Positions 1 through 2,373 of a DNA stretch of 29,406 nucleotides are shown piece by piece. This DNA is from a virus, in the IMG/VR virus record IMGVR_UViG_3300023210_000156, positions 1 to 29,406 of that record; one strand, written 5' to 3'. A model generated the notes under the pieces. It was not told the DNA's origin and made no database searches. It saw nothing but the letters and a program-made list of their open reading frames with translations. Position numbers and translations under genes: made by a program. Every line of letters begins with the position of its first letter. Positions within the stretch are counted from its first letter, which is position 1.

Positions 1-67
1 AAAGCAGACAATAGGACGGGGCATATGCATAGCTAGTCTAATACTTAATTCCTTTATTTTATAATAT

Positions 68-187
68 TACTCTCATCCAATAGCAGGATATAACAGTAAT
101 GCCAAGATTGATTTCCTCTGGTTTGTTAATATTAGGTGATGTCTCTGAACAGTTAAGCAAGACTATTAAAGCAACCTTGTGAGAGTA
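68..187 (+). ncRNA. Structured RNA element A (paired with the element at 334-435)
   Basis: TACTCTCA (68-75) pairs perfectly with TGAGAGTA (180-187). The stem continues outward, ATAATAT (61-67) with ATATTAT (190-196), after a two-base bulge, giving about 15 bp. A hairpin closed by CAAG (158-161) and CTTG (176-179) abuts the terminal stem, as a T-arm abuts an acceptor stem, but its loop is 14 nt. The first 19 and last 22 bases match the element at 334-435 almost exactly while the interiors differ, which suggests one RNA family rather than a recent duplication. No ORF runs through it. The strand is assumed from the following terminator. Function is unknown. Confidence 0.5.
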
Positions 188-224
188 TAATATTATAACT
201 ATTAACCTTTAAAACTTAGAAATT

Positions 225-320
225 ATGATAAAAGAAAATGAACAAGAAACAATGGATTTCTACGGAATAACAGAAGAAGATTTAGAAATATGGAATGAAC
301 TTCAATATTCACAAGTATAA
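225..320 (+). CDS. 31-aa acidic mini-protein between two RNA elements
   Basis: This ORF runs ATG to TAA and encodes MIKENEQETMDFYGITEED followed by a short hydrophobic/acidic tail. It sits exactly between the two related structured elements. Its A-rich leader without a Shine-Dalgarno sequence resembles the leaders of the confident genes in this window. The composition is strongly acidic, amphipathic and protein-like, with no cysteines and no membrane segment. I do not recognise it. Its size makes a chance ORF possible, but the codon use (AAA, GAA, ATA, TTA) fits the neighbouring genes. Confidence 0.4.
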   Translation: MIKENEQETMDFYGITEEDLEIWNELQYSQV

Positions 321-333
321 TATTTTATAACAT

Positions 334-435
334 TACTCTCATCCAATTGCAAGTAAGTAAGGTAACACTAACAATAACGTTGGTGTTCTAACTGAAAACT
401 AGGGCAGCGCCAAGGTTTGCAACTTTGTGAGAGTA
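334..435 (+). ncRNA. Structured RNA element B, tRNA-like stack
   Basis: TACTCTCA (334-341) pairs with TGAGAGTA (428-435). A 5-bp hairpin, CAAGG-TTTGCAA-CTTTG (411-427), directly abuts the closing stem and has a 7-nt loop, the geometry of a tRNA T-arm on an acceptor stem. A second hairpin, CACTAAC-AATAAC-GTTGGTG (366-385), has 7 bp. There is no recognisable anticodon loop, D-loop GG or CCA end, and at about 102 nt it is longer than a normal tRNA. Compared with the element at 68-187, the ends are conserved and the interior is not. Probably a non-coding RNA of unknown function; a decayed or highly derived tRNA is the alternative. Confidence 0.5.
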
Positions 436-445
436 TAATACTAAT

Positions 446-491
446 CCTAGTCTGGCTTAATTAGTCAAACAACAGAAGTGTTGTGATTAGG
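446..491 (+). ncRNA. 46-nt perfect three-way-junction RNA
   Basis: Every base but one is either paired or in a hairpin loop. P1 is CCTAGTC (446-452) with GATTAGG (485-491), 7 bp including one G-T pair. P2 is TGGCT-TAATT-AGTCA (453-467), 5 bp including one G-T pair. P3 is ACAAC-AGAAGT-GTTGT (469-484). The only junction nucleotide is A468. The intrinsic terminator begins four bases downstream, so this looks like the 3' end of a transcript carrying the two upstream elements. It lacks the conserved core of a hammerhead ribozyme. A miniature cloverleaf missing one arm is a fair description; function is unknown. Confidence 0.5.
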
Positions 492-494
492 TGG

Positions 495-527
495 AACCTC
501 TACCTTATGTGTAATAAGAGGTTTTTT
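495..527 (+). terminator. Intrinsic terminator of the upstream RNA unit
   Basis: AACCTCT (495-501) pairs with AGAGGTT (517-523), and the top of the hairpin can also pair (CTTA with TAAG). A run of six T follows (522-527). It ends the segment with the two paired RNA elements, the 31-aa ORF and the three-way junction. Confidence 0.75.
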
Positions 528-537
528 ATAAGGTTAA

Positions 538-638
538 ACACTTAGCGTCCATCGGTTAAACGGTACAGGGAGGGTAATCAGTCCTCCTATTATATATACA
601 AGTTATGTATATCCGAGAATGGGTATAGTAACAAGTGT
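538..638 (+). ncRNA. Closed multibranch structure, possible RNA
   Basis: ACACTT (538-543) pairs with AAGTGT (633-638). Inside are a D-arm-like segment, a G-rich/C-rich hairpin (GAGGG with TCCTC around a 7-nt loop), and TATATCC-GAGAAT-GGGTATA (7 bp, one G-T pair, near 608-627). The order resembles a cloverleaf, but the loops do not fit tRNA rules and the closing stem is only 6 bp. This part of the 321-1035 interval has no ORF. Confidence 0.3.
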
Positions 639-668
639 CGGTATATATTCTTAGAACAAACGGCTATT

Positions 669-741
669 AAACAAGAGATAAGGTTAGCAAAGGAATAATA
701 GTGGGCGGCAATCCATTACCTTTAGCACTTATCTCTTGTTT
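669..741. ncRNA. 14-bp-stem structured element
   Basis: AAACAAGAGATAAG (669-682) is perfectly complementary to CTTATCTCTTGTTT (728-741). Two further helices stack inside: AAAGG (689-693) with CCTTT (719-723), and TAGTGG (699-704) with CCATTA (713-718), leaving an 8-nt apical loop. They are separated by asymmetric internal loops. Three nested helices in 73 nt are unlikely by chance in AT-rich DNA. TTTT follows the stem, so it could act as a terminator, but the architecture looks more like a functional RNA. The strand cannot be decided. Confidence 0.5.
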
Positions 742-754
742 TACAACATACTAG

Positions 755-842
755 TCCACGGATAATTTGAGTGATTTCTTATTATCAAGGACAGGGAGGT
801 TCCCCATGACGGCCCAGTAGCTAGTAATACTACGAATGTGGA
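755..842. ncRNA. Multibranch structure closed by a 5-bp stem
   Basis: TCCAC (755-759) pairs with GTGGA (838-842). Inside lie GATAAT (761-766) with ATTATC (781-786), a small GGG/CCC hairpin near 794-805, and GTAG (817-820) with CTAC (830-833). Individual helices are short, so this is weaker than the neighbours. It is listed because it fits an unbroken series of closed structures in ORF-free sequence. Confidence 0.25.
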
Positions 843-887
843 GCAAGTAGGTAAATAGGCTGATTTAATCACAGTCTATTTGCTTGC
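843..887. ncRNA. Long hairpin, possible RNA or terminator
   Basis: GCAAG (843-847) pairs with CTTGC (883-887). After an internal loop, AAATAGGCTG (853-862) pairs with CAGTCTATTT (872-881) over 10 bp. No T-run follows, so a terminator is unlikely. It starts one base after the previous closed element. Confidence 0.35.
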
Positions 888-915
888 TATACATTAAAAT
901 ATTAAAAGTGGAGTC

Positions 916-975
916 CTGGTGACATACTAGTTAGTCATAACCCTTAATTAGGTACATATGCAATCGCGCAACCAG
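916..975. other. Weakly supported closed structure in ORF-free DNA
   Basis: CTGGT (916-920) pairs with ACCAG (971-975), with small internal hairpins such as TGAC/GTCA near 920-937. The decamer ACATACTAGT occurs here (922-931) and also at 746-755. Apart from the elements listed separately, I see no gene in the ORF-free stretch 321-1035, although composition and stop density exclude a long protein. Confidence 0.2.
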
Positions 976-1035
976 TATCAGCTTTTATAATTAATTTCAA
1001 AATTCAATTTTAATATATATTTAAACAAAAATGTT

Positions 1036-1212
1036 ATGAAGCACAATCAATTAGAAAGAAGAAGTGGAGCATTAAGTAGACTAGAAGCTCAATTAGAGAA
1101 TGGTACTAAAAGTACTAAGGCAAATAATATTTATAATAATATGCCTTTATCTGATAAAGATATTAAAAGAATTAGTAAGGAAATAGAAATCCTTAAAAAA
1201 AGATTACTATAA
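1036..1212 (+). CDS. 58-aa basic coiled-coil-like protein
   Basis: This unrecognised small protein begins MKHNQLERRSGALSRLEAQL and ends in a second charged helix rich in Lys, Glu and Leu. Both halves look helical, separated by an Asn-rich linker, so a short helical hairpin is likely. It has no cysteines or membrane segment. The leader is very A/T-rich (ATATATTTAAACAAAA), typical for the confident genes here. An earlier ATG at 1031 meets a stop after one codon, so 1036 is the start. It lies between the upstream RNA-rich region and another structured intergenic stretch. Confidence 0.6.
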   Translation: MKHNQLERRSGALSRLEAQLENGTKSTKANNIYNNMPLSDKDIKRISKEIEILKKRLL

Positions 1213-1238
1213 TAAATTTACTGAACACATGACAACAC

Positions 1239-1392
1239 ACCTACACGGAGTGGGCACAATATGTTAGTAGGTAAATTATCAATAGAGAAATGAGTCAAGC
1301 AATACCACTGATTATTCTGTAATAGTATCAGCTGTGAAGATACGGAACCTAAGCTTTGCTTAATCCAGTAGCAGATAAGCACTTTATTGATA
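1239..1392. ncRNA. Structured intergenic region with two closed elements
   Basis: The first element is ACCTAC (1239-1244) paired with GTAGGT (1267-1272). The second is an 11-bp stem, TATCAATAGAG (1277-1287) with CTTTATTGATA (1382-1392), one G-T pair. It encloses CTGAT...ATCAG with an inner TATT/AATA, and GCTTA...TAAGC near 1358-1380. No ORF fits. The ACCTAC/GTAGGT closing stem recurs at 1774-1822. Structure is visible; function and strand are unknown. Confidence 0.4.
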
Positions 1393-1423
1393 TATATAAA
1401 TTATTAACTAAATACTAAATGAT

Positions 1424-1681
1424 ATGATAGGAAGATATGAACACACAACTATGTTGTACTTAGGAGCTGTTGTTCTTGAGGAAACAAATGACTCAGATAT
1501 TATACTTGGACATTTCAATAAGAATGGTTGCATTGTCTATGGTATTATTGAAAGATATGGAAAAGAGTATCAGCAAAAGAAATGTTACTGTTATGGTAAC
1601 ATTCTAAGAAAAGACTTTGTGCCTCAACACATCTTAGAAATATTCCAACAAAACAAAGAGTTAATAGATAGAATACTATAA
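1424..1681 (+). CDS. Small protein of unknown function (85 aa)
   Basis: I do not recognise this protein. The sequence is mixed alpha/beta in character, with a beta-rich N-terminal half (LYLGAVVLEE, DIILGHFNKNGCIVYGIIE), a YCYG motif near the middle and a helical C-terminus (ILEIFQQNKELIDRIL). Three cysteines lie between residues 36 and 56 but not in a zinc-binding pattern. The ATG at 1424 is the first usable start; an ATG six bases upstream is in another frame and stops at once. Structured RNA-like sequence flanks it on both sides. It is the first longer gene after the RNA-rich region. Confidence 0.65.
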   Translation: MIGRYEHTTMLYLGAVVLEETNDSDIILGHFNKNGCIVYGIIERYGKEYQQKKCYCYGNILRKDFVPQHILEIFQQNKELIDRIL

Positions 1682-1690
1682 ATAATATAT

Positions 1691-1767
1691 GCCATTAAGC
1701 CTCTTTATAGAGTTACATGACACGCCTAAATAATACGGCAGGGTAAGTTTGAATCTTACTAGTGGCA
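1691..1767 (+). tRNA. tRNA-like element, no canonical anticodon arm
   Basis: The acceptor-type stem GCCATTA (1691-1697) pairs with TAGTGGC (1760-1766) over 7 bp, one wobble, followed by A1767. A perfect T-arm directly precedes the 3' strand: GTAAG-TTTGAAT-CTTAC (1743-1759), 7-nt loop. A short D-like hairpin, CTC-TTTATA-GAG, lies at 1701-1712, without the usual GG. The anticodon region only forms GCC/GGC (1724-1726 with 1737-1739) around a 10-nt loop, so no anticodon can be assigned. No CCA is encoded. The total of 77 nt fits a tRNA. It could be a derived tRNA, a decayed one, or a tRNA mimic. Confidence 0.4.
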
Positions 1768-1773
1768 CTAAAT

Positions 1774-1822
1774 ACCTACAAAGTTCTTTAAGTTTTACGA
1801 GCAAAAAGTTATACAAGTAGGT
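1774..1822 (+). other. Hairpin upstream of the 169-aa exported protein
   Basis: ACCTAC (1774-1779) pairs with GTAGGT (1817-1822), the same closing stem as at 1239-1272. CTTTTTATT follows shortly after (1829-1837), so weak termination is possible, but the stem encloses 37 nt, which is long for a terminator. Confidence 0.3.
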
Positions 1823-1863
1823 GTATGACTTTTTATTAACTAACCAATTAAAAAAATCAAATC

Positions 1864-2373
1864 ATGAAAAAAATGCTAACAATACCCATAATAATAATAT
1901 TACTAAGTTTTACCCCATCTAAATCAGATAATACTTTTCAAATTAATGAAGCTATTAATACATTGGAAGATATGAAAGAATGGATGGAGTGGGACATGTA
2001 CATAGGAGATATAGACTCAATAAAAGGAGCTCTCTACATTGAAAACATTGAAAATACAATAATCAAACTTAATATGAGTAATAATGAACTAGTAGAATTA
2101 CCTATTTCTTTGGATAAAGAAGTAAAACAAATTGAATTAGCTAGTATTGTTGATGATGTACATTATGAAGTAACTTCATATACAGTGGATGATAATTTAG
2201 TTAACTTATATTTATCTCCAGGATCAGATTATCAGCTTATCATAAATGGAAAAGATTATTTTAACTTTACCATAATGGATAGAGATATCACTAATGAAGA
2301 AAATTTAAATATATCAACTGATTTAAACTATAAAATTGTTGATGAAATAATTACTTTTTATACTAACCCGTAA
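1864..2373 (+). CDS. Exported protein of unknown function (169 aa)
   Basis: The N-terminus (MKKMLTIPIIIILLSFTPSK) is a classic signal peptide: two lysines, a hydrophobic core and a likely cleavage near Ser-Lys-Ser around residue 20-22. There is no lipobox cysteine. The mature part is acidic, rich in Asn, Asp and Ile, and reads as alternating beta strands, ending in a segment with hydrophobic residues. No cysteines or recognisable catalytic motif are present. Export to the periplasm or cell surface is expected, for example for superinfection exclusion or host-envelope interaction, but that is speculation. The leader (CCAATTAAAAAAATCAAATC) has no Shine-Dalgarno sequence, like other confident starts here. 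Confidence 0.7.
   Translation: MKKMLTIPIIIILLSFTPSKSDNTFQINEAINTLEDMKEWMEWDMYIGDIDSIKGALYIENIENTIIKLNMSNNELVELPISLDKEVKQIELASIVDDVHYEVTSYTVDDNLVNLYLSPGSDYQLIINGKDYFNFTIMDRDITNEENLNISTDLNYKIVDEIITFYTNP

Follow-up and report, generated by a model that had tools for sequence, protein, structure and literature searches.

The window, i.e. the whole stretch of DNA analysed, is the 29,406-base virus record IMGVR_UViG_3300023210_000156 of IMG/VR. The closest relative of its phage DNA polymerase is that of Cellulophaga phage phi14:2 (Crassvirales), at 32%. The first-pass annotation had placed two structured RNAs with conserved ends and divergent interiors at 68-187 and 334-435, and both elements are present exactly there. 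The constant part of the elements is called the frame; it consists of an outer stem (P1), a conserved strand (J1/2) and a hairpin (P3), and encloses a variable interior. Designations such as L014, L095 or L238 are labels of fetched loci. The features are given below in order of position, with their basis in brackets where it is specific.

68-187, plus strand: element 1, 120 nt; frame with its own interior.
68-75, plus strand: element 1, P1 5′ strand TACTCTCA, pairs with 180-187 (sequence and family covariation).
76-87, plus strand: element 1, conserved strand J1/2 TCCAATAGCAGG (family alignment).
158-179, plus strand: element 1, hairpin P3, CAAG 158-161 and CTTG 176-179, 14-nt loop (sequence).
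180-187, plus strand: element 1, P1 3′ strand TGAGAGTA, followed by the tail TAA at 188-190.
225-320, plus strand: 31-aa ORF, between the elements.
334-435, plus strand: element 2, 102 nt; frame with an interior that differs from that of element 1.
334-341, plus strand: element 2, P1 5′ strand, pairs with 428-435 (covariation).
342-353, plus strand: element 2, J1/2 TCCAATTGCAAG; UUGCA 347-351 is able to pair with loop UGCAA 418-422 (alignment, covariation).
354-410, plus strand: element 2, variable interior (cargo); no alignment with the L014 and L104 interiors despite a homologous downstream flank.
411-427, plus strand: element 2, T-arm-like hairpin P3, CAAGG 411-415, loop TTTGCAA 416-422, CTTTG 423-427.
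428-435, plus strand: element 2, P1 3′ strand, followed by the tail TAA at 436-438.
436-994, plus strand: non-coding array continuing past element 2; its modules are common to L095, L104 and L014, in shuffled order.

The ends described as near-identical are so: the 5′ blocks (55-85 and 321-351, 31 nt) are 94% identical and the 3′ blocks (171-195 and 419-443, 25 nt) 92% identical, and the interiors of the two elements are unrelated by sequence. The 8-bp closing stem is found in both elements, as is the adjoining CAAG/CTTG-type hairpin, which has 4 bp and a 14-nt loop in element 1, longer than the family norm, and 5 bp and a 7-nt loop in element 2. With up to 3 mismatches allowed, the 3′ motif, GCAACYTTGTGAGAGTA, is found in the window only at the two elements; 0.14 sites are expected, and none of 100 shuffles gave two. 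The likeness of the element ends is thus far above chance. Element 2 folds better than its shuffles (z -4.0) and element 1 does not (z 0.3); single-sequence folding by itself could therefore not have established the pair. The 31-aa ORF does lie between the elements, as had been noted, but no copy of it was found in L095, L104, L014, L157 or L158, so that this ORF is probably unrelated to the RNA elements.

The elements belong to a family of about 125 distinct members, found in IMG/VR phage contigs. In IMG/VR, exact matches to TACTCTCATCCAATNGCA occur in 39 contigs, most of them with a complete frame; a hairpin scan returned at least 120 stretches, and 57 came from a scan in which both helices could largely vary. 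These scans were seeded with exact frame patterns; they therefore overstate frame conservation, and the numbers of members are minimum values. A family detector (score: frame similarity, maximum 26) was run over all fetched loci. It gave 127 elements at 18/26 or above, nearly all other matches scoring 13 or less, which sets members sharply apart from noise. Two over-long parses were removed, leaving 125 elements for later counts. Contigs of 84-123 kb carry one or two frames apiece. The elements are intergenic: no ORF of at least 60 aa overlaps 107 of the 125. They have the orientation of the nearest upstream ORF in 101/108 cases and of the nearest downstream ORF in 103/107; the medians for the distance to the nearest ORFs are 241 and 277 nt.

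The exact hairpin 17-mer was matched 91 times in 84,980 prokaryote genomes, and none of these matches was a confident family member in later scans. The full frame was not found in cultured phage records, where a 32-nt frame query gave weak partial matches only, and window positions 1-2000 showed no DNA similarity to cultured phages. A 305-aa protein used for a neighbour search had no relatives found. No Rfam 15 family matches the elements. Relaxed thresholds gave chance matches only (e.g. SAM-II, 14.7 bits against a cut-off of 44); at these thresholds too, neither tRNA (RF00005) nor tmRNA nor any riboswitch matched. ARAGORN called no tRNA, and neither ARAGORN nor Rfam gave a tmRNA match at any element tested. 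No description of the family was found in the open-access literature. The family has thus not been catalogued before and falls in none of the known families tested; its layout is nearest to that of a tRNA-like RNA with an insert (tmRNA-like).

The frame consensus is TACTCTCA-TCCAA(TT)GCAGG-(interior)-CAAGG-RTTGCAA-CCTTG-TGAGAGTA-C. It comprises the 8-bp P1 (TACTCTCA/TGAGAGTA), the conserved strand TCCAA(TT)GCAGG and a 5-bp P3 with a 7-nt loop adjoining P1. The loop reads GUUGCAA (89) or AUUGCAA (31), and a GCA/UGC pairing between it and the conserved strand is possible. Covariation was analysed in 48 distinct frames, counting changes on both sides of a pair against 500 shuffles and against controls with slid partners. 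In this set, 98.4% of cells are paired. Both-side changes occur in 8 of 18 pairs and 28 cells (shuffle mean 4.5; 28 reached by none of the 500), and the slid-partner controls have at most 6 double-changed cells; kinship alone can lift such counts above shuffles, so that these are strong but short of a formal R-scape test. The changes include CG to UA at P1 pair 7 (9 rows), UA to AU at P1 pair 1 (7 rows) and AU to GC in P3 (2 rows). Both stems are strongly supported by covariation, the loop-strand pairing weakly. For the loop-strand pairing there is one compensatory change, GCA/UGC to GUA/UAC (L257), together with near-universal complementarity; this pairing is accordingly graded as likely, but unproved. 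The variant frames of L266:5469-5560 and of the second L453 element depart from the consensus in two parts, J1/2 having AATAG and the P3 loop ATTAGAA.

The first-pass annotation had preferred a processed RNA family to a simple repeat, and had named the lack of homologues with compensatory changes as one observation that would count against it. Such homologues exist: more than 100 phage contigs carry them, the compensatory changes affecting P1 as well as P3, and they are the decisive support for an RNA family that has no Rfam 15 match. Conserved ends with free interiors, as it described them, are the defining trait of the family. Its picture was right on the RNA family, but was drawn without the loop-strand pairing, the cassette exchange and the connection with tRNAs.

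The interiors fall into 61 sequence classes among the 127 elements and are 5 to about 160 nt long, the near-empty frame L453:2600-2648 having a 5-nt interior. They are conserved inside a class, and both classes tested have covarying helices of their own: class 0 has 11 pairs with both-side changes across the whole element, the majority within the interior, and class 2 has several. The interiors therefore resemble folded cargo rather than drift. They are also exchanged at constant sites. The same slot, a small constant hairpin RNA, lies upstream of 11 elements whose interiors are of 10 classes; a second upstream slot has 11 elements with interiors of 8 classes. The downstream flank is common to 6/190 same-class pairs and to 120/7,560 different-class pairs. 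The window aligns well with its near relatives L014 and L104 over the 3′ frame (GTGAGAGTATAATACTAATCC) and about 80 nt beyond it, while the interiors of the three are unalignable. L014 is 67-85% identical to the window elsewhere and 92% identical over 586 nt in the array just downstream. L095 has, arranged in a different order, a 242-nt block 100% identical to the window and a copy of element 1 (L095:1123-1242, 1 mismatch; window 57-192 is 98.5% identical to L095) with other neighbours. Arrays and cargo are therefore shuffled among phages.

Several features of the frame are those of a tRNA. P1 is stacked without linker on the 5-bp, 7-nt-loop P3, as an acceptor stem abuts a T arm; a U stands at the U8 position, and the D loop has its counterpart in the conserved strand, which can pair with the P3 loop. 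Covariation is also seen at the -1:73 pair (U-A to A-U). The stack of acceptor and T arm, with the elbow, is what RNase P measures (PMC4919913). The T-loop consensus UUCRANY is absent from the 7-nt loop (RUUGCAA), and neither a D stem nor an anticodon arm is present in the frame.

The frame is followed by C-N-A in 88/125 elements, against a background of 5.3%. The 3′ ends of the elements resemble those of tRNAs of the same phages: C-N-A ends 17/23 tRNA genes of the frame-carrying phages (CCA, 1/23) and CTA ends 6/6 tRNA genes of their PolB relatives, whereas CCA ends 27/45 tRNA genes of other viral contigs. The 3′ end of the tRNA genes in frame-carrying contigs and PolB relatives is mostly A-C-T/A-A rather than A-CCA. 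An encoded CCA at the end of all elements was considered and rejected, position 2 of the tail being variable. The window's own copies and their clade have A-UAA, not A-CNA. In phage T4 pre-tRNA-Ser, UAA replaces CCA (PMC11143913); the tail of the window is therefore compatible with a tRNA-like model, although it is not that of the family majority.

Frame elements and tRNA genes also occupy the same slots. The slot of tRNA-Leu in L275 is that of a frame element in L238 (upstream identity 92% over 66 nt); L285 has tRNA-Arg where L316 carries a frame element; and in L260, tRNA-Met is followed by the module that elsewhere trails frame elements. Only these three exchanges were seen. In-register flank matches were found for 3/29 tRNAs, against 14/4,000 (0.35%) and 28/2,000 (1.4%) in controls. 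Because of the tRNA-type 3′ tail and of the slot exchange with tRNA genes, processing of the elements is likely.

The preferred explanation, to which about an even chance is given, is a constant tRNA-like frame that would be matured by host tRNA-processing enzymes around an exchangeable folded cargo RNA. Maturation enzymes read one half of a tRNA, and the frame would mimic this half: an acceptor-like stem of 7 bp plus the -1:73 pair, with U at position 8; a conserved strand that would replace the D loop and pair with the loop of the T-arm-like 5-bp hairpin adjoining the acceptor; and a 3′ tail that is mainly A-C-N-A, and A-U-A-A in the clade of the window. From transcripts of the gene-codirectional non-coding stretches and arrays in which the elements lie, host RNase P and tRNA 3′-processing enzymes would most likely excise the element, as they do phage tRNAs. 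The product would be a short stable RNA whose specific job is presumably done by the cargo, and the element may also keep neighbouring RNAs apart. A wider reading is put forward more tentatively, at about one chance in three: that large environmental phages possess a modular platform for RNAs, in which at least 60 cargoes are swapped in a universal tRNA-like frame and the host tRNA machinery would make fast-evolving effector or decoy RNAs. Counting against the tRNA-like model are the non-canonical loop, the missing D stem and anticodon arm, the failure to match tRNA or tmRNA models, the A-UAA tail of the window's clade, the small number of slot exchanges and the outer stem, the sequence of which is conserved well past pairing needs, something that tRNA maturation enzymes would not require.

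The outer stem also bears on a second explanation, the main rival, in which the elements would be a new small self-cleaving ribozyme with P1, P3 and the loop pairing as its core and the interior as a free peripheral domain, the array transcript being cut apart. An almost fixed outer stem is unusual in a ribozyme P1. A compact fold and conserved bases outside the helices would suit a ribozyme, and the same phages carry hatchet ribozymes detected by Rfam at 82-87 bits, as follows.

L152:1709-1846, minus strand: hatchet ribozyme.
L276:2069-2206, minus strand: hatchet ribozyme.
L139:8591-8727, plus strand: hatchet ribozyme.

Other framed RNAs and the hatchet core motif lie within 1.5 kb of the elements: frame B accompanies 48 of them, frame C 15, frame D 13 and the hatchet core motif 10. 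Frame B has 39 copies (L259:7108-7199 and 38 more), a conserved frame of its own and 33 interior classes. Its layout is TAATGCACC-(hairpin, loop TTCCCAAGG)-GCAGTTGTA-(variable)-TACAACTGAGTGCAGAGGG. By eye it is twister-like, but a twister assignment was rejected since the Rfam twister models give no match to it. Known ribozyme classes cluster near each other (PMC10085705), and it is this clustering, together with the hatchet neighbours, that keeps the ribozyme explanation alive. No Rfam ribozyme model matches the elements themselves: hatchet RF02678 (cmscan) matches elsewhere in the same contigs and at none of the elements, and twister, pistol and twister-sister give no match to them. The tRNA-type tail and the slots held by tRNAs would be left unexplained. 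A ribozyme is regarded as unlikely, at between one chance in four and one in five.

Somewhat less probable still is a trans-acting sRNA, in which a protein of the phage or of the host would bind the frame, the interior would confer specificity and the likeness to tRNA would be incidental. The near-fixed sequence of the outer stem, beyond what pairing or tRNA maturation explains, may point to a specific binding protein; the frame is extremely conserved although PolB is only about 54% identical (window against the L122/L176 contig, where both were seen), and interiors are hypervariable. Flanks vary among copies of one interior class, which makes cis-regulation of one gene unlikely. Yet no one gene was found to accompany the elements consistently, and the tail and slots in common with tRNAs would again be unexplained.

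The free reassortment of interiors and flanks, and the fact that both ends start with TACTCTCA when read inwards, would also suit a mobile cassette acting as DNA, with frame ends as terminal inverted repeats or recombination sites and a secondary RNA fold. This is improbable, at less than one chance in ten: no target-site duplication of the kind left by a miniature inverted-repeat transposon was seen by eye in a flank table of 117 elements, the elements are codirectional with genes (101/108, see above), helices in the internal hairpin and in the interiors show covariation, and the slots held in common with tRNA genes suggest a role as RNA. Least probable, and hardly tenable, is a cis-acting terminator, riboswitch or leader of adjacent genes, for which the intergenic, co-directional position of the elements would speak, against their distances from the ORFs, the flanks that change for the same interior class and the failure to match any riboswitch.

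The tRNA-like frame with exchangeable cargo is best compared with tmRNA. In tmRNA, an acceptor stem, a stemless D-loop region and a T arm adjoining the acceptor are found, and a large insert replaces the anticodon arm. The frame elements share this layout of acceptor and T arm with an insert; they differ in that they have no canonical T-loop, match no tmRNA model and carry an insert of 5-160 nt that is wholly different among members. The 3′ tRNA-like structures of plant RNA viruses contain a pseudoknot that imitates part of a tRNA; these are RNA virus genome ends, whereas the frame elements are predicted small RNAs of DNA phages. Hatchet RF02678 resembles the frame elements in occurring in the same phages and arrays and in having a conserved core and a variable internal region, but its core sequence and helices differ and the elements fail its model.

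To our knowledge, there is no precedent for a frame that is fixed nearly letter for letter and whose cargo is replaced wholesale at the same site. We likewise know of no such constant-frame, variable-cargo organisation in C4, M3 or the T4 tRNA precursors. Host RNase P does cut C4 (antisense, P1/P7) and M3, which are non-tRNA phage RNAs, and also T4 tRNA precursors, of which pre-tRNA-Ser has the UAA tail of the window's elements (PMC11143913). The tmRNA precursor, a tRNA-like structure, is also a substrate of RNase P (PMC4919913, PMC11143913).

The family is an abundant, unlisted one among phage RNAs, and offers a direct test of why tRNA genes are exchanged for other RNAs in phages. If the tRNA-like reading is true, these phages would exploit host tRNA maturation to produce many different small RNAs, and the collection of cargoes would already amount to a list of phage RNA functions that change fast.

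Some observations concern sequences inside and beside the frames. Interiors of the present frame (frame A) and of frame B were compared and no convincing sharing was found. Free movement of interiors outside frames was rejected, with a single clear case (L245 and L260). In that case, the only clear cargo sharing between frames, the frame-A interior of the L245 element (minus strand, 797) has a 35-nt stretch in common with a stem resembling frame B at L260:1411-1444, its hairpin showing a compensatory change. A canonical-looking tRNA T arm (GTGGTTCAAATCCAC / TAGGTTCAAATCCTA) is found within a frame-A interior and a frame-B interior (L237:9033-9151, L139:10125-10243). In the window, positions 541-590 resemble the 5′ portion of a tRNA (GCGTCCATCGGTTAAACGGTAC); a corresponding 3′ portion is not obvious, and the stretch recurs in L014 and L104. 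Positions 1690-1771, which are not called by ARAGORN, resemble a degenerate tRNA (GCCATTA ... GTAAG-TTTGAAT-CTTAC-TAGTGGC-A-CTA), in which the T arm looks canonical and the tail is CTA.
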